A DNA stretch of 33,888 bases from Lysobacteraceae bacterium (GTDB taxonomy: Bacteria > Pseudomonadota > Gammaproteobacteria > Xanthomonadales > Ahniellaceae): the NCBI GenBank assembly GCA_021299185.1, contig JAJTHZ010000078.1, positions 1-33,888 of the forward strand, in the 5' to 3' direction. Numbering within the stretch: position 1 is the stretch's first letter; each line of letters starts with the position of its first letter. Both the position numbers and the translations under genes were made by a program. Positions 26,993 through 33,669 of the stretch are shown here, piece after piece. The notes below the pieces were generated by a model. It saw only the letters and a list, made by a program, of their open reading frames with translations. It had not been told where the DNA came from and did not search any database.

Positions 26993-27763
26993 ATGTCCGA
27001 ACACTTCACCCTGCGCCTGGTCCGCAGCCACATGCTGGCGCCGAGCGTGCGCCACATGGCGTTCGCGCGCACCGACGGCGCGCCGCTGCGCTTCATCCCG
27101 GGGCAGTTCCTGCAGATCCACTTCGAGGACGGCGGGCGCACGCTCAAGCGCAGCTACTCGATCGCGACCTTCCATGACGACCCGGCCAATCCCGAGGGGC
27201 TGGTCGAGATCGCCGTGTCCTACGTCGAAGGCGGGGCGGCGACCCGGCTGCTGTCCGGCCTCGAGGTCGGCGGCGAGATCGCCGCCAGCGGGCCCTACGG
27301 GCGGTTCTGCCTGCACGACGCCGATGCCAACGGCCGCTACCTGCTGATCGCCACCGGCACCGGTGTCACCCCCTATCGCGCGATGCGCCCGCTGCTCGAG
27401 CAGCAGGTCGCGCAGCGCGGGATCGAGGTCGTGGTGCTGTTCGGCGCGCGCAATCCCGGCGAGGTGCTGTACGGCGCCGAGTTCCGCGCGCTGGCCGAGC
27501 GCGTGCCCGGCGTGCGCTTCATGCCCTGCCTGTCGCGCGAAGGCAGCGCCACCCCGCACCCGGACGAGCGCCGCGGCTACGTGCAGGCCGCCCTGGCCGC
27601 GCTGGCCCCGGACCCGGCGCGCGACATCGCCTACCTGTGCGGCAACCCGAACATGGTGGATGCCTGCTTCGAGGCCCTGAAGGGCCACGGCCTGCCGATC
27701 CCGCACATCCGCCGCGAAAAATACGTCTCCCCGCCCGACCCCAAGCGCGCAGCGGCGACCTGA
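26993..27763 (+). CDS. fpr: ferredoxin/flavodoxin--NADP+ reductase
   Basis: A 256-residue FAD enzyme of the bacterial FNR type. Visible are the FAD-binding RSYSIA near 53-58, the glycine-rich ASGPYGRF near 98-105, the NADP-binding GTGVTPYRAM near 122-131, and CGNPNMVD near the end. It finishes with the EKYVSP-type tail that characterises subclass I bacterial FPRs. It exchanges electrons between NADPH and ferredoxin or flavodoxin and in related bacteria supports oxidative-stress defence and Fe-S biosynthesis. A TAGTAT -10 candidate lies upstream. It is divergent from yadGH and followed by a tandem array of REP elements; it appears monocistronic. Confidence 0.9.
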   Translation: MSEHFTLRLVRSHMLAPSVRHMAFARTDGAPLRFIPGQFLQIHFEDGGRTLKRSYSIATFHDDPANPEGLVEIAVSYVEGGAATRLLSGLEVGGEIAASGPYGRFCLHDADANGRYLLIATGTGVTPYRAMRPLLEQQVAQRGIEVVVLFGARNPGEVLYGAEFRALAERVPGVRFMPCLSREGSATPHPDERRGYVQAALAALAPDPARDIAYLCGNPNMVDACFEALKGHGLPIPHIRREKYVSPPDPKRAAAT

Positions 27764-27801
27764 AGCGGCGGGCCGCGAGTACTCCGGACTTGCGGTAGGT
27801 C

Positions 27802-28125
27802 CATCGCGCTGCACGCAGCGCTCCCACAGAAAGCGCGCGCGGGCGGGGTGGGAGCCGATTCCACCGGCGACAGCCCTGCGACAAGACCACGGCCCTGTGG
27901 GAGCGGCGCGAGCGGCGCGAGCTTTTCGGGCTTGCGGCACGCCCATCGCGCTGCACGCAGCGCTCCTACAGAAAGCGTGCGCGGGCGGGGTGGGAGCCGG
28001 TTCCACCGGCGACAGCCCTGCGACAAGACCGCGCTCCCTGTGGGAGCGGCGCGTGCGCCGCGAGCTTTTCGGGCTTGCGGCACGCCCATCGCGCTGCACG
28101 CAGCGCTCCTACAGAAAGCGCGCAT
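27802..28125. repeat. 142-bp tandem array of mixed REP elements (2.3 copies)
   Basis: Units start at 27802, 27944 and 28087 with CATCGCGCTGCACGCAGCGCTCC. Each full unit holds a reversed type C element, a type D element (GTGGGAGCCG.TTCCACCGGCGAC) and a type E element (GTGGGAGCGGCGCG.GCG..GCGAGC), then TTTTCGGGCTTGCGGCACGCC. The two full units differ at scattered single positions; the third stops after 39 nt. A weaker start (ACTTGCGGTAGGTC) just left of 27802 suggests an older unit. No gene is supported in 27764-28221. Confidence 0.8.
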
Positions 28126-28148
28126 GGTGGGGCGTTCACCACGGGGAT

Positions 28149-28172
28149 TTCACGTGACTTCCGGCCCGTGAA
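28149..28172. promoter_or_regulatory. candidate operator 1 (TTCACG-N12-CGTGAA)
   Basis: A perfect 6-12-6 inverted repeat. An overlapping weaker copy, TTCACC-N12-CGTGAC, occupies 28135-28158. Together with operator 2 it sits directly upstream of the winged-helix regulator, so it is a candidate autoregulatory site. The binding protein is inferred, not shown. Confidence 0.55.
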
Positions 28173-28188
28173 CCCGTGCCTTGCAATG

Positions 28189-28212
28189 TTCACGATTGAT
28201 GCGTACCGTGAA
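28189..28212. promoter_or_regulatory. candidate operator 2 (TTCACG-N12-CGTGAA) overlapping the promoter
   Basis: A second perfect 6-12-6 inverted repeat with the same half-sites as operator 1, starting 40 bp after it. It ends 9 nt before the regulator's ATG and overlaps the likely -10 region (GAATAAT at 28210-28216), so occupancy would block transcription. No ribosome site fits between it and the ATG; a leaderless transcript is possible. Confidence 0.6.
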
Positions 28213-28221
28213 TAATCACCG

Positions 28222-28977
28222 ATGAGCCGAATCACCACCCACCGCCCCGCCGCGCCGCCGATCCCGACCGAACGGTTCATCGGGCCGGAGGAACTGCGCC
28301 TGCTGGCCGACCCCGTGCGCGAGCACCTCGTCAACGCGCTGGTGCCGCGCGCGCGCACCGTGGCCGAGGTCGCCGAGGGCCTGGGCTGCGCGCCGACCCG
28401 CCTGTATCGCCACGTGCAATTGCTGCTCGACGCCGGCCTGCTGGTGGTCGAGCGCGAGGTGAAGGTGCGCGGCGTGGTCGAGCGCCACTACCGCGCGGCG
28501 GCGCGCACCCTGCGCCTGCGGCGCCCGCAGTTCGCCGCTGCCGCCGGGGATGCGGGCATCGAGGCGATCCTGGCCTACGCGCTCGACCAGTCGCGGCGCG
28601 ACATCGCCGGCGCGGTCGCCGCGGGCCACATCGACCCCCTGCACCGCCATCCCGATCCGCGCGCCGTGCTGGCCTGGCGCTGCGTGGCCCGCGTCACCGC
28701 CGCCGAGCATGCGCGCCTGCAGAAGCGCGCCCTCGCGCTGTACAACGAAGTCGAACGCCTCGGTCGCCGCGCGGCGCCGCAGGGCGCCCTGTTCGCGCTG
28801 TCGGTCGCGCTGTTCCCCTGCGACCCGGTGGGGCAGCGCGCGCGCCGCGTCGCGAAGGCGCCCTCGGCCGGCGATCGACCGCGGGCGCGCGCCCGCGGTC
28901 CCGGCGGGAGTGGCCCGGCCACCGTCGCGCAACGCACCGTCCGCCGCACCAGCCGACACCCGAAGGAGAGCCGCTGA
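28222..28977 (+). CDS. winged-helix (ArsR-like) transcriptional regulator
   Basis: A 251-residue protein. Residues about 20-95 form an ArsR/HTH_20-type winged helix: ELRLLADPVREHLVNAL, then TVAEVAEGLGCAPTRLYRHVQLLLDAGLL with the recognition helix, and a wing ending VVERHYRAAARTL. The metal-binding Cys motif of ArsR is absent. Residues 100-200 are helical and could be the dimer or effector region. The last 40 residues are Arg/Pro-rich and look disordered. The ATG at 28222 has no Shine-Dalgarno sequence and lies just after two identical inverted repeats, suggesting autoregulation. Its stop overlaps the next start by 1 nt (TGATG), so it is translated with the M50 protease, whose level or activity it may control. 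Confidence 0.85.
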   Translation: MSRITTHRPAAPPIPTERFIGPEELRLLADPVREHLVNALVPRARTVAEVAEGLGCAPTRLYRHVQLLLDAGLLVVEREVKVRGVVERHYRAAARTLRLRRPQFAAAAGDAGIEAILAYALDQSRRDIAGAVAAGHIDPLHRHPDPRAVLAWRCVARVTAAEHARLQKRALALYNEVERLGRRAAPQGALFALSVALFPCDPVGQRARRVAKAPSAGDRPRARARGPGGSGPATVAQRTVRRTSRHPKESR

Positions 28978-30185
28978 TGGACCCGACCCCGTTTCCCGAT
29001 CCGCCGCGCGCGGACGCCGTGCCCCTGCTCAAGCGCAAGGTCACCTGGCGCGAGCTTGCCATGACCCTGGTCGGGGCCGCGCTCGGGGCCGCACTCGGCT
29101 ACGCCGGCGTCCACGCCGGCCGCGCGCTCGGCGGCGTGGAACTGAAGACGCATTTCGACCTCGACCTGCTGACCCTGCTGCTGGTGCCCGCGATGTGGCT
29201 GGTGGTGGTGATGGCCCACGAGTTCGGCCACCTGCTGGGCGGCCGGCTCGGGGGCATGCGCCCGCTGATGCTGTTCGCGGGCCCCCTGCACTTCGAGTTC
29301 GGCGCCGACGGCCGCACGCGCCTCAAGCGCAACCGCGTGCAGTCCTCGTTCGGCGGGCTGGCGGCCTGCGCACCGCGCGCGGACTCCGGGCGCGGCCAGT
29401 TCGCGCTGCTGGTCGCCGGGGGTCCGCTGGCGAGCTTCGCGCTGGCCGCCCTGCTGTGGCCGCCCGCGTTCGCGCTCGGCGGCTGGTGGGGTGGTTTGCT
29501 GCTCGCGACCGCCGGCCTGTCGGCGCTGATCGGCATCCTGACCCTGGTGCCGCTGCGCGCCGGCGGCTTCACCAGCGACGGCGGCCAGTTGCTGGGGCTG
29601 GCGCGCAACGACGCCGAGACGCTGCGCAACCTCGCGATGGCGCCGCTGCTCGCGCAGTCCTACGCCGGCGTGCGCCCGCGCGACTGGAACCCGGGCCTGC
29701 TCGACGCGGCGACCGGTGAGTCGAAGGACCCCACGCAGCGTCGCCTCGCGCAGCTGCTGCGCGCAGGCGTGGCCGAGGACCGCGGCGACTTCGAACAGGC
29801 CGACGCGCTGTGGCGCACGATCGCCGCCGGCTTCTCCGAACCCGACAGCGAAAAGGTCGCACCGGCCATGCGCGGTGCGATGGCGCTCGGCGTGGCGGCG
29901 TGGCTGGCGCACCGGCGCCGCGACGGCGCGGTCGCGCGGCGCTGGCTCGACGCGGGGCGTCGCGGCTTCAACGATCCATCCGTGCTCGCCTTCACCGAAG
30001 GCGCGGTGGCCTGGGCCGAAGGCGATGCGGCGACCGCACGGACCAAACTCGCGGAATCGCGCGCCCTGCTGCCGCGGCTGGCCGACCGGGGTGGCGCCGT
30101 GGTGCTCGCCGAGTCGATCGACGACATCGCGCGCGCGCTTGACGCGAAGATCACGCCCGCGGGGCCGGCGGCTGCACCAGCATGA
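28977..30185 (+). CDS. membrane-embedded M50 (site-2-protease-like) metalloprotease with helical C-terminal domain
   Basis: A 402-residue protein. Membrane helices lie at about 28-46, 63-80, 141-162 and 170-192. The zinc motif HEFGH is at 81-85 at the end of the second helix. GGPLASF at 148-154 resembles the AGPxxN segment of S2P proteins, and SDGGQLL at 200-206 resembles the NPxDGG segment with the third zinc ligand, Asp201. Residues from about 235 are soluble and helical with a TPR-like spacing (AGVAEDRGDFEQADALWRTI, then AMRGAMALGVAAWLAHRR and GAVAWAEGDAATARTKLAES). No PDZ domain is seen, unlike RseP. AAGGAG precedes the ATG. It probably cleaves membrane-bound proteins or peptides; the substrate is unknown. 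Confidence 0.85.
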   Translation: MDPTPFPDPPRADAVPLLKRKVTWRELAMTLVGAALGAALGYAGVHAGRALGGVELKTHFDLDLLTLLLVPAMWLVVVMAHEFGHLLGGRLGGMRPLMLFAGPLHFEFGADGRTRLKRNRVQSSFGGLAACAPRADSGRGQFALLVAGGPLASFALAALLWPPAFALGGWWGGLLLATAGLSALIGILTLVPLRAGGFTSDGGQLLGLARNDAETLRNLAMAPLLAQSYAGVRPRDWNPGLLDAATGESKDPTQRRLAQLLRAGVAEDRGDFEQADALWRTIAAGFSEPDSEKVAPAMRGAMALGVAAWLAHRRRDGAVARRWLDAGRRGFNDPSVLAFTEGAVAWAEGDAATARTKLAESRALLPRLADRGGAVVLAESIDDIARALDAKITPAGPAAAPA

Positions 30186-30279: not shown

Positions 30280-31749
30280 ATGAGAACCTTGCTTGGTGCG
30301 GCCACGCTGCTGCTGGCCGCCGGCGCCGTCGCGCCCGCGACCGCGCGCACGCTCGGCAGCCTGGAGTTCGAGCCCTGCGGGCTCAGGTCTCCCGGCCTGC
30401 CGGTCAACATCGATGCCCAGTGCACGACACTGAAGGTGCCCGAGGACGCCTCGAAGCCCGACGGCCGGCAGATCGAACTGGCGATCGCCTGGGTGCCGAG
30501 CCGCGCCGACGAGGCGCTGCCCGACCCGGTGTTCATGCTCGCCGGCGGCCCCGGCCAGAGCGCGCGCGAGGCCTATCCGGGCGCCGCCGCCGCGTTCCGC
30601 GACCTGCGCGCGCGCCGGCACGTGATCCTGGTCGACCAGCGCGGCACCGGCGGCAGCAACCGCCTGTCGTGCACGCCGACCGAAGCCGAACTGCAGGGCG
30701 ACGCGATGGAATCGCCGGACGCGATGCGCGCGTTCGCCGCGCGCTGCCGCGAGTCGCTGTCCGACCGCGCCGACCTGCGCTTCTACACCACGTCCGAGGC
30801 GGTGGCCGACCTCGACCGCGTGCGCGCGGCGATCGGCGCCGAGCAGATCAACCTGGTCGGCATCTCCTACGGCACGCGGGTCGGGCTCGAGTACCTGCGC
30901 CGCTTCCCGGAGCGCACCCGCACCCTGGTGATCGACGGCGTGGTGCCGCCGGAACTGTTCCTCGGCAACGACCACGCGAAGAACCTAGAGGCCGCGCTGG
31001 CGCAGCACTTCGAGCGCTGCGCCAAGGACGCGACCTGCAGCGAGCGCTACGGCACGCCGCAGCGCACCCTGCAGGACCTGTTCGCGAAACTGCGCGAAGC
31101 ACCGGTCGAGGTCACCGCGCGCGACCCGGTCACCGGCGTGATGTCGACGCGCGCCTTCGGGCCCACCGAGCTGACCACCGTGGTGCGGCTGTTCTCGTAC
31201 TCACCGGGCATGGCCGCGATGCTGCCGCTGGGCCTCGCCGAGGCCGCCGCCGGCCGCTTCGACACCCTGCTCGCGCAGTCGCGCATGGTCGGCGAGGTGA
31301 TGGGCGAGACGATCTCGCTCGGCATGCATTTCTCGGTCAGTTGCGCCGAGGACGTCGACGGCCTGGTCGCCGATCCGACCGATGCCGGCACCACGCTGGG
31401 CAACGCGCTGGTCGAGGGCATCAAGGCCGCCTGCGAGGAATGGCCGCGCGGCACCACGCCCGCCGACTTCCACGCGCCGGTGAAGAGCGACGTGCCGGTG
31501 CTGCTGCTGTCGGGCGAACTCGACCCGGTGACGCCGCCGCGCTACGGCGAGCAGGTCGTCTCCCACCTGCCGAACGGCCGCCACCTCGTCGCCCGCGGCA
31601 CCGGCCACAACGCGATGCCGGCCGGCTGCATGCCCAAGCTGGTGAGCCTGTTCGTGCAGGACGCCAATGCGAAGGACCTCGACGCATCCTGCCTCGAGCG
31701 CCTCGTCGACACCCCGCCGTTCGGCGGTTTCCACGGCTGGGAGCCCTGA
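30280..31749 (+). CDS. secreted S33-family alpha/beta-hydrolase peptidase (tripeptidyl-aminopeptidase-like)
   Basis: A 489-residue protein with a signal peptide (MRTLLGAATLLLAAGAVAPATA). The hydrolase fold has an AGGPGQSA oxyanion loop near 88-95, DQRGTGGSN near 119-126, the nucleophile elbow GISYGTR with Ser196, the acid in GELDPVTPP and the His in GTGHNAMP, followed by the TAP-like C-terminal domain. Several Cys residues fit a periplasmic location. Relatives remove short N-terminal peptides or act on proline-containing peptides. The frame is open upstream, but the ATG at 30280 is chosen for its signal peptide and nearby GGGGAAG. It ends 1 nt before natA, which argues that peptide cleavage and the exporter are expressed together; a 94-nt gap separates it from the M50 gene. 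Confidence 0.9.
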   Translation: MRTLLGAATLLLAAGAVAPATARTLGSLEFEPCGLRSPGLPVNIDAQCTTLKVPEDASKPDGRQIELAIAWVPSRADEALPDPVFMLAGGPGQSAREAYPGAAAAFRDLRARRHVILVDQRGTGGSNRLSCTPTEAELQGDAMESPDAMRAFAARCRESLSDRADLRFYTTSEAVADLDRVRAAIGAEQINLVGISYGTRVGLEYLRRFPERTRTLVIDGVVPPELFLGNDHAKNLEAALAQHFERCAKDATCSERYGTPQRTLQDLFAKLREAPVEVTARDPVTGVMSTRAFGPTELTTVVRLFSYSPGMAAMLPLGLAEAAAGRFDTLLAQSRMVGEVMGETISLGMHFSVSCAEDVDGLVADPTDAGTTLGNALVEGIKAACEEWPRGTTPADFHAPVKSDVPVLLLSGELDPVTPPRYGEQVVSHLPNGRHLVARGTGHNAMPAGCMPKLVSLFVQDANAKDLDASCLERLVDTPPFGGFHGWEP

Positions 31750-31750
31750 C

Positions 31751-32497
31751 ATGATCGAAGTCCAGGACCTGCGCAAGACGTTCAAGACCAAGGCCGGCGT
31801 GGTCAAGGCGGTCGACGGCGTGTCGTTCACCGCCCGCGACGGCCAGATCACCGGCCTGCTGGGACCCAACGGGGCGGGCAAGACCACCACCATGCGCATG
31901 CTCTACACGCTGATGGCGCCCGAGACCGGCCGCGTGCTGGTCGACGGCCACGACGCCACCCGCGACCCGACCGCCGTGCGCCGCGTGCTCGGCGTGCTGC
32001 CGGACGCGCGCGGCATCTACAAGCGCTTCAGCGCGCGCGAGAACATCGCCTACTTCGGCCAGCTGCACGGGCTCGACGAGGCGACCATCCGCGCGCGCAC
32101 CGACGGCCTGGTGTCGGCGCTCGACATGGCCGACTTCGCCGACCGCCGTTCGGAAGGCTATTCGCAGGGCCAGCGCACCAAGACCGCGATCGCGCGCGCG
32201 ATGGTGCACGACCCGAAGAACGTGGTGCTCGACGAGCCCACCAACGGCCTCGACGTGATGACCACCCGCGCGATGCGCGGCTACCTGCAACGCCTGCGCG
32301 CGGAGGGCCGCTGCGTGCTGTTCTCCAGCCACATCATGCAGGAGGTGGCCGCGCTCTGCGACCACATCGTGGTGATCGCCAAGGGCCACGTGGTGGCGCA
32401 GGGCAGCGCGGACGAACTGCGCGAGCGGACCGGGTTGCCGAACCTCGAGGACGCTTTCGTGAAGATCATCGGCAGCGACGAGGGGCTGTTCGCATGA
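31751..32497 (+). CDS. natA: NatA-type ABC transporter ATPase
   Basis: A 248-residue ATPase with Walker A GPNGAGKTT (38-46), a variant signature YSQGQ (137-141), Walker B NVVLDEPTNG near 157-166 and an H-loop in SSHIMQEV. VLPDARGIYKRFSARENI is typical of the NatA group, which with NatB exports Na+ in Bacillus. In proteobacteria the substrate is generally unproven. The ATG lies 1 nt after the S33 peptidase stop, and its end overlaps natB by 4 nt (ATGA), so the three genes are translationally linked. Its true substrate could be peptides or other ions. Confidence 0.88.
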   Translation: MIEVQDLRKTFKTKAGVVKAVDGVSFTARDGQITGLLGPNGAGKTTTMRMLYTLMAPETGRVLVDGHDATRDPTAVRRVLGVLPDARGIYKRFSARENIAYFGQLHGLDEATIRARTDGLVSALDMADFADRRSEGYSQGQRTKTAIARAMVHDPKNVVLDEPTNGLDVMTTRAMRGYLQRLRAEGRCVLFSSHIMQEVAALCDHIVVIAKGHVVAQGSADELRERTGLPNLEDAFVKIIGSDEGLFA

Positions 32498-33669
32498 ACA
32501 CCGTGTTCACCGTGTTCCGCAAGGAACTGACCGACGCCTTCCGCGACCGCCGCATGGTGATGGTCAACTTCCTCCTCATCCCGCTGCTGATCCCGATCGT
32601 GTTCGGCACGCTCACCTCGGTCGGCGCCAAGCAGCAGCGCGAGCGCCTCGAACAGGCGCTGGAGCTGCCGGTGGTCGGCGCCGAGCGCGCGCCGAACCTC
32701 GTCGCCTGGCTGCGCGCCAACAACGTCGACGTCAAGCCGGTCGAAGGCGGCCTCGACGAGGCGATCCGCGCGCAGACCTACGACGTTGGACTGACCGTGC
32801 CCGAGTCGTTCCCCGAGGAGTGGCGCGAGAGCCGCCCGGCCGAGCTGCAGCTCACTTACGACGGCTCGCGGCCCAACCAGACCGGGCCGTCGATCCAGCG
32901 CATCCAGGGCCTGCTCGCTGCCTACGGCAGCGAACTGGGCTCGCTGCGCCTGGTCGCGCGCGGCGTCCATCCCGGCGTGGCTTCGCCGGTGCTGGTCACC
33001 AACCGCGACCTCGCCACCCCGAAGGCCAATCCGCTCACGGCGTTCTTCGTCGCCTACCTGCTGCTGATGCTGTCCTTCATCGGCGGCATGCATCTCGCGA
33101 TGGACTCCACCGCCGGCGAGCGCGAGCGGCAGTCGCTGGAGCCGCTGCTCGCCACGCCGGTCACCCGCGAGGGCATCGCCAGCGGCAAGATCCTGGCCAC
33201 CGCCGCGTTCGCCATCGCGAGCATCGTCACCACCGGCCTGTTCTACAAGTACGGCTTCGGCTTCTTCGCCGAGGAAGGCTCGCGCTCGATCATCGACACC
33301 TCGGCCGCGCTGCTGGGCCAGTTGTTCCTGGTGATCCTGCCGGTAGTGCTGCTGGGCGCGGTGTTCACCACGGTGCTCGCCGCGCAAGCCAAGAGCTACC
33401 GCGAGGCCGGCAGCTTCGTCTCGCTGCTGATGTTCATCCCCATGGTGCCGGTGTTCGCCGGCCAGTTCCTGGTGGTGAAGGAAAAGCTGTGGATGTTCGC
33501 CGTGCCGCTGTTCGCGCAGAACCAGATGATCACCCGCCTGGTGCGCGGCGAAACACTGACCGCGCCGGAGTGGGCGCTCGGCATGGGCACCGGCCTGGCG
33601 CTGGTGGTCCTGTCCTGGCTGGTGGCGGCGCGGCTGTACAAGCGCGAGCAGCTCGCGATCTCGGGCTGA
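32494..33669 (+). CDS. natB: NatB-type ABC-2 transporter permease
   Basis: A 391-residue permease. One helix near 22-42 is followed by a soluble extracytoplasmic region of about 130 residues (VVGAERAPNLVAWLRANNVDV, then YDVGLTVPESF), then a cluster of five to six helices from about residue 175 onward. The ERERQSLEPLLATPV cytoplasmic coupling segment is typical of NatB/ABC-2 permeases. It partners NatA and starts inside the natA stop. It ends the five-gene array and is followed by a 12-bp-stem hairpin. The name rests on family resemblance; Na+ export has not been shown for this type. Confidence 0.87.
   Translation: MNTVFTVFRKELTDAFRDRRMVMVNFLLIPLLIPIVFGTLTSVGAKQQRERLEQALELPVVGAERAPNLVAWLRANNVDVKPVEGGLDEAIRAQTYDVGLTVPESFPEEWRESRPAELQLTYDGSRPNQTGPSIQRIQGLLAAYGSELGSLRLVARGVHPGVASPVLVTNRDLATPKANPLTAFFVAYLLLMLSFIGGMHLAMDSTAGERERQSLEPLLATPVTREGIASGKILATAAFAIASIVTTGLFYKYGFGFFAEEGSRSIIDTSAALLGQLFLVILPVVLLGAVFTTVLAAQAKSYREAGSFVSLLMFIPMVPVFAGQFLVVKEKLWMFAVPLFAQNQMITRLVRGETLTAPEWALGMGTGLALVVLSWLVAARLYKREQLAISG

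Follow-up and report, generated by a model that had tools for sequence, protein, structure and literature searches.

The window, by which we mean the whole 33,888-nucleotide stretch of DNA analysed, carries a gene for a winged-helix regulator followed by genes for a predicted M50-type membrane metalloprotease, an alpha/beta hydrolase, an ABC transporter ATPase and an ABC-2 type permease, and preceded by two copies of the inverted repeat TTCACG-N12-CGTGAA (Table 1). As a previous sequence-only reading of this DNA had reported, both copies are perfect, their 12-nt spacers are unlike each other (33% identity), and the second copy ends 9 nt before the ATG of the regulator gene. The first T of each TTCA or TGAA lies at 28149, 28169, 28189 and 28209, in alternating orientation and exact 20-bp steps, with N16 within each site and also N16 between sites 1 and 2. 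A hidden partner spaced by N7 or N8 was sought for each half-site of the window and none was found, only k=16 being present. The weaker third repeat of the same reading does exist, but with its two mismatches and its bases in common with site 1, it is at most a possible functional element. The intergenic DNA at 27785-28123 consists of a tandem array with a 142-bp unit (2.4 copies, 93%); this unit belongs to a dispersed intergenic repeat, for which the genome gave 88 matches.

Table 1. Features of the window around the inverted repeats.
Feature	Position	Strand	Evidence or remark
Ferredoxin-NADP reductase-like (FNR) gene, synteny anchor upstream	26993-27763	+	Pfam FAD_binding_6 / NAD_binding_1
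Weak third repeat, TTCACC-N12-CGTGAC, TTCACCACGGGGATTTCACGTGAC	28135-28158		2 mismatches; overlaps site 1
Candidate operator site 1, TTCACG-N12-CGTGAA (= TTCA-N16-TGAA), TTCACGTGACTTCCGGCCCGTGAA	28149-28172	.	exact
Candidate operator site 2, TTCACG-N12-CGTGAA, TTCACGATTGATGCGTACCGTGAA	28189-28212	.	exact; overlaps promoter
Array of 4 alternating TTCA/TGAA half-sites	28149-28212	.	sequence
Promoter, candidate (predicted)	28181-28216	+	two alternative readings
Promoter reading 1, TTCACG / AATAAT	28189-28194 / 28211-28216		promoter match inside site 2
Promoter reading 2, TTGCAA / TACCGT	28181-28186 / 28204-28209		comparison with L035, L036, L061
Regulator, 251 aa, winged helix (HTH_20)	28222-28977	+	Pfam HTH_20 35.6 bits
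M50-type membrane metalloprotease (predicted), 402 aa, HEFGH	28977-30185	+	orthologues pass Pfam
Alpha/beta hydrolase, TAP-like C-terminus	30280-31749	+	Pfam Abhydrolase_1 / Abhydrolase_4
ABC transporter ATPase	31745-32497	+	Pfam ABC_tran
ABC-2 type permease	32494-33669	+	Pfam ABC2_membrane_3

The ATG of the M50 gene overlaps the stop codon of the regulator gene (TGATG). The M50 protein of the window scored below the Pfam cut-off (12.5 vs 27.2 bits) and contains HEFGH, an HExxH zinc motif, and its orthologues at L033, L034, L037 and L042 (L numbers denote the loci compared) pass the M50 cut-off; the motif in the window and the profile match in four orthologues place it among the M50 (site-2) proteases. 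The hydrolase gene stands in the same order at L035, L036, L040 and L042, and the hydrolase, ABC ATPase and ABC-2 permease genes likely belong to the same operon as the regulator-M50 pair. The FNR-like upstream neighbour is conserved at L033, L035, L036, L040, L061, L066 and L067. Within 28050-28300, TTCACG-16-AATAAT at 28189-28216 was the sole sigma-70-like promoter match, which agrees with the promoter that had been suspected under the second site; the alternative TTGCAA/TACCGT resembles the TTGCCG..TATCAT promoter of orthologous loci. The AATAAT reading would put the transcription start at about the ATG, and as no Shine-Dalgarno sequence is visible before the regulator ATG, the regulator mRNA may be leaderless.

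The regulator matched Pfam HTH_20 (PF12840, ArsR-like winged helix) over residues 28-77, above the cut-off of 27 bits. Its AlphaFold2 model has an overall pLDDT of 83.8, with a confident winged helix at residues about 11-100 (pLDDT about 92-98 by block), and the recognition helix is predicted at residues 59-70 (28396-28431, TRLYRHVQLLLD), with R63 within TRLYRH. The nearest solved structures, by sequence as well as by fold, were 4G6Q (the best) and 1ULY; SmtB, CzrA and BigR came further down the fold-match list, and the NCBIfam HTH_metalloreg profile gave 30 bits, under its cut-off of 55. The regulator had been described as an ArsR-like protein lacking metal-binding cysteines, which holds for the HTH_20 winged helix and for the motif, no ELCVC-type metal-binding motif being present in the protein and no CxC in the helix preceding the recognition helix; the protein is not cysteine-free, however, as it contains C56, C154 and C200.

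Relatives of the regulator were collected by protein and profile searches of the order and class, plus a scan of 84,980 genomes, and were found in Lysobacterales, elsewhere in the same class, and in Chloroflexota, Thermomicrobia and Actinomycetota, the closest being about 43% identical to the window regulator. No relative was obtained from the single-protein scan of genome contigs or from the viral contigs scanned, and the regulator is absent from the other members of the host's own family. At the syntenic loci L033, L035, L036 and L040, a regulator occupies the same place as in the window, between the FNR-like gene and the M50/hydrolase genes, so that FNR, regulator, M50 and/or hydrolase follow in the window order; no M50 match was detected at L040. 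Phylogenetically, the regulator of the window forms the sister lineage of the M50-clade regulators, six of which were tested (support 98/96); L007-L012 and L081 make up a second, separate clade (100/100). Of the seven members of this second clade, six (L007-L010, L012 and L081) have a CPBP/Rce1-like protease gene divergent from the regulator, its identity being confirmed by Pfam for the L008 copy and read from sequence similarity for the others, and L011 has a beta-lactamase-like serine hydrolase in its place. Regulators of this HTH_20 group adjoin M50 or CPBP membrane metalloproteases, and our literature search found no paper on ArsR regulators linked to M50 or CPBP. Just before the recognition helix, in GC[AP][PT]TRLY, lies C56 (28387-28389), which six of the seven readable M50-clade regulators share, the window included, and which the CPBP clade lacks; it is a possible redox or ligand contact.

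Upstream of the related regulators from other genomes, a TTCA-N7/8-TGAA palindrome was observed within 90 bp in 22 of 24 cases (at L040 the distance was counted from a small gene preceding the regulator), compared with 0.13 on average and at most 3 in shuffled upstream regions. In the M50 clade each orthologue has a single palindrome resembling CATTCAA-N5/6-TTGAATG, which at L033, L035, L036 and L040 reads CATTCAA-N5-TTGAATG and precedes the regulator or its operon; in the CPBP clade, two TTCAC-N6-GTGAA palindromes are the usual arrangement. At L061, L066 and L067, where no regulator lies between the FNR and M50 genes, no TTCA-Nk-TGAA with k below 25 was found there, and the regulator-less L061 has kept the promoter-like sequence that L035 and L036 also have. 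The palindrome is thus tied to the regulator, since it is found family-wide upstream and is missing where the regulator gene is missing. At L040 a 61-residue ORF (L040:2835-3017) comes right after the palindrome and before the regulator, and therefore the operon under an operator there would include this additional small gene.

The window shares the upstream TTCA/TGAA palindrome with these 22 of 24 relatives and departs from them in spacing, being the sole locus among those compared with N16, at both its sites, vs N7/N8 in the relatives, so that its half-sites are 20 bp apart vs 11-12 bp. Conservation among orthologues, on which the sequence-only reading had rested its case, was therefore found for the TTCA/TGAA palindrome, at the same place in all syntenic orthologues, but not for TTCACG-N12-CGTGAA itself. 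Rather than the new operator then proposed, we see a diverged, re-spaced form of an existing family whose orthologues carry CATTCAA-N5-TTGAATG. Across the loci compared, the half-site is ancient and the spacing new, the 20-bp spacing being natural and fixed at two sites of one genome. In a third HTH_20 subfamily, with the recognition helix PADGLYYHL, nine of 11 loci (L015, L018, L019, L020, L021, L022, L023, L028 and L095) have TTGAA-N14/15-TTCAA (24/25 bp) upstream, of the same length as the window site and of opposite polarity, and at L013, L016, L017 and L103, TTATCA..TGATAA-like palindromes resembling the LugJ operator lie upstream of HTH_20 regulators.

Half-sites also vary in their fifth base together with residue 63, which lies within the recognition helix of the structure model. 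Regulators with Arg63 (the window, and L007-L012 with L081) mostly have TTCAC, and those with Tyr63 or His63 elsewhere mostly TTCAA, the few exceptions including L038 (Tyr, with one TTCAC half) and L007, L009 and L012 (Arg, with one TTCAT half each). As the Arg groups are separate on the tree, the link between Arg63 and TTCAC has either originated two or more times or undergone several losses. The pattern is suggestive of residue 63 setting the fifth half-site base, with about two independent clades or events, and it is drawn within this subfamily alone, with no significance figure claimed; the LugJ-like subfamily, which has LYRH with TTATCA-type sites, falls outside the correlation.

With regard to rarity, the two window sites are the only exact copies of TTCACG-N12-CGTGAA in the 4,839,407-base (4.84-Mb) genome, TTCAC-N14-GTGAA occurs there three times (the two window sites and one within a coding region), and the whole-genome pattern search found TTCAC-N6-GTGAA to be absent. 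The exact pattern did not appear in shuffles of the window. When the test was relaxed to any 6-mer half-site with at least three A/T and any spacer of 4-20, a pair with the same half and the same spacer no more than 100 bp apart was present once in the window, and none of 1000 dinucleotide shuffles contained one; in 28100-28221 alone, with any half-site, such a pair arose in 2 of 20,000 shuffles. The composition filter was picked after the unfiltered any-half-site test had proved uninformative, and the A/T content of the half-site matters because GC-only half-sites often yield such pairs by chance when the filter is left out. Sites with up to two mismatches number 82 per strand genome-wide vs 55 for a control pattern. 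A regulon beyond the locus was considered and set aside, as the number of sites with one or two mismatches exceeds the control only modestly and the one TTCAC-N14-GTGAA outside this locus falls in coding sequence; we therefore claim no further target.

Our data indicate with good probability that the repeats serve the neighbouring ArsR-like (HTH_20) regulator as its autoregulatory operator. The earlier idea of protein-contact sites for this regulator in front of a regulator-M50 operon is very probably right, because the palindrome is present in 22 of 24 relatives and absent from three regulator-less loci. Since the operator overlaps the promoter of the regulator-M50-hydrolase-ABC operon, autorepression is suggested, in which the regulator would act on its own operon. 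In the mechanism that we infer, the regulator, most likely as a dimer, would read the TTCACG half-sites through its recognition helix (TRLYRH); at site 2 it would cover the core promoter and block RNA polymerase, site 1 would help site 2 to shut off the operon, and its release would come from a signal, which may be a peptide or a small hydrophobic ligand. The 20-bp steps would put all four half-sites on roughly the same helix face, and the four half-sites that sites 1 and 2 give in register suggest cooperative binding. More tentatively, one orthologous clade may have passed from a one-turn (11-12 bp) operator to a two-turn (20 bp) array of four half-sites, with Arg63 switching the fifth base, a scenario we consider possible while leaning against it; if true, the regulator would have rearranged its two DNA-binding domains, or its dimers.

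The counterpoint to the operator reading is that the wide spacing comes from a single genome and that the operators of the relatives, with half-sites 11-12 bp apart, offer no structural precedent for 20 bp; another protein might also bind here, in which case operator and regulator would not belong together. It is rather unlikely that the regulator binds but that the 24-bp unit is not its dimer site. The dimer site would then be the outward GTGAA-N16-TTCAC between the repeats (28168-28193), or each half-site would take its own dimer, with a tetramer or two dimers on the four-half-site array. In favour of this, half-sites come every 20 bp, which makes inward and outward pairs equal in spacing, the PADGLYYHL subfamily shows the outward polarity, for Rv2034, an ArsR protein, one half-site is enough for binding and doubling the spacer is tolerated (PMC3338718), and a second shifted band of LugJ was read as a possible tetramer (PMC11980582). 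The simplest repeat, however, is a duplicated 24-bp unit with identical ends, and the TTCAA relatives display inward polarity, often in a single palindrome.

We regard as improbable that the sites belong to another transcription factor for which the adjacent gene is merely a target. TTCAC/GTGAA half-sites are short and common to several families, which counts for such a factor, but the palindrome is missing where the regulator gene is missing, its fifth base tracks the recognition helix of the adjacent regulator, and a global regulator is unlikely because the genome holds just these two copies. Their place just before the start codon would suit RNA hairpins, whether as an attenuator or a translational element, yet this is very improbable, since 6-bp stems with 12-nt loops are weak, hairpins do not need identical half-sites between copies, a terminator scan found none, and site 2 is probably largely untranscribed because it overlaps the likely -35/-10. 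Chance similarity, or derivation from the repetitive intergenic DNA directly upstream, has a practically negligible probability; that adjoining stretch is a tandem array with many dispersed copies, but it stops at 28123, before the sites, which are unique in the genome and are not reproduced by shuffles.

If the repeats are the regulator's operator, they matter in several respects. Operators of dimeric repressors usually keep their spacing tight, and the window offers a natural, near two-turn case in a one-turn family. Residue 63 is a clear candidate for half-site specificity, so operator evolution could be put to a direct test with a single residue swap and a change of one spacer. Moreover, for a group of regulators that is uncharacterised and adjoins intramembrane-type metalloproteases (M50 or CPBP), the palindromes supply candidate operators.

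ArsR-like autorepression, TTC..GAA palindromes, altered spacers tolerated in vitro and variable natural spacers are already known. A close likeness is with the HTH_20 regulators of L007-L010, L012 and L081, which have the TTCAC half-site, the helix T[RK]LYRH (PRLYRH in L012), mostly two tandem palindromes and, in several, a GTGAATAATCA flank; they differ from the window in half-sites 12 bp apart vs 20 bp and in a divergent CPBP protease vs an M50 operon. LugJ of Staphylococcus lugdunensis is a winged-helix regulator, with a dimer modelled on 4G6Q, that represses from a 26-bp palindrome and is released by its ligand, a peptide antibiotic exported by the products of genes under LugJ control (PMC11980582). 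It is like the window protein in that 4G6Q is the latter's best sequence and fold match, and in being a dimeric repressor on a long palindrome beside export/immunity genes; by analogy, a LugJ-like role would fit the transporter and peptidase-like genes of the window operon. Compared by description, LugJ differs in its TTATCA-type half-site, its 26-bp near-perfect palindrome and its known ligand, and its gene is divergent from the target operon, unlike that of the window.

The ArsR-family proteins SqrR/YgaV bind ATTC-N8-GAAT sites (PMC9774250), and share with the window the winged-helix fold and an inward TTC..GAA palindrome over an RNA polymerase site, with TTC-N8-GAA vs TTC-N18-GAA in the window; cysteine-based sulfide sensing is a trait of SqrR/YgaV. 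Rv2034 of Mycobacterium tuberculosis is an ArsR-like autorepressor that tolerates a doubled spacer and a single half-site in vitro and binds more strongly with both half-sites and the native spacer (PMC3338718). Its autoregulation via an inverted repeat near the start codon resembles what is proposed for the window, and it differs in having another half-site and in that its wider spacer is artificial. CcpA is a member of the LacI family. Its cre-var sites are inverted repeats with a natural spacer that is highly variable (PMC5263246), whereas the spacing in the window is fixed, twice at one promoter.
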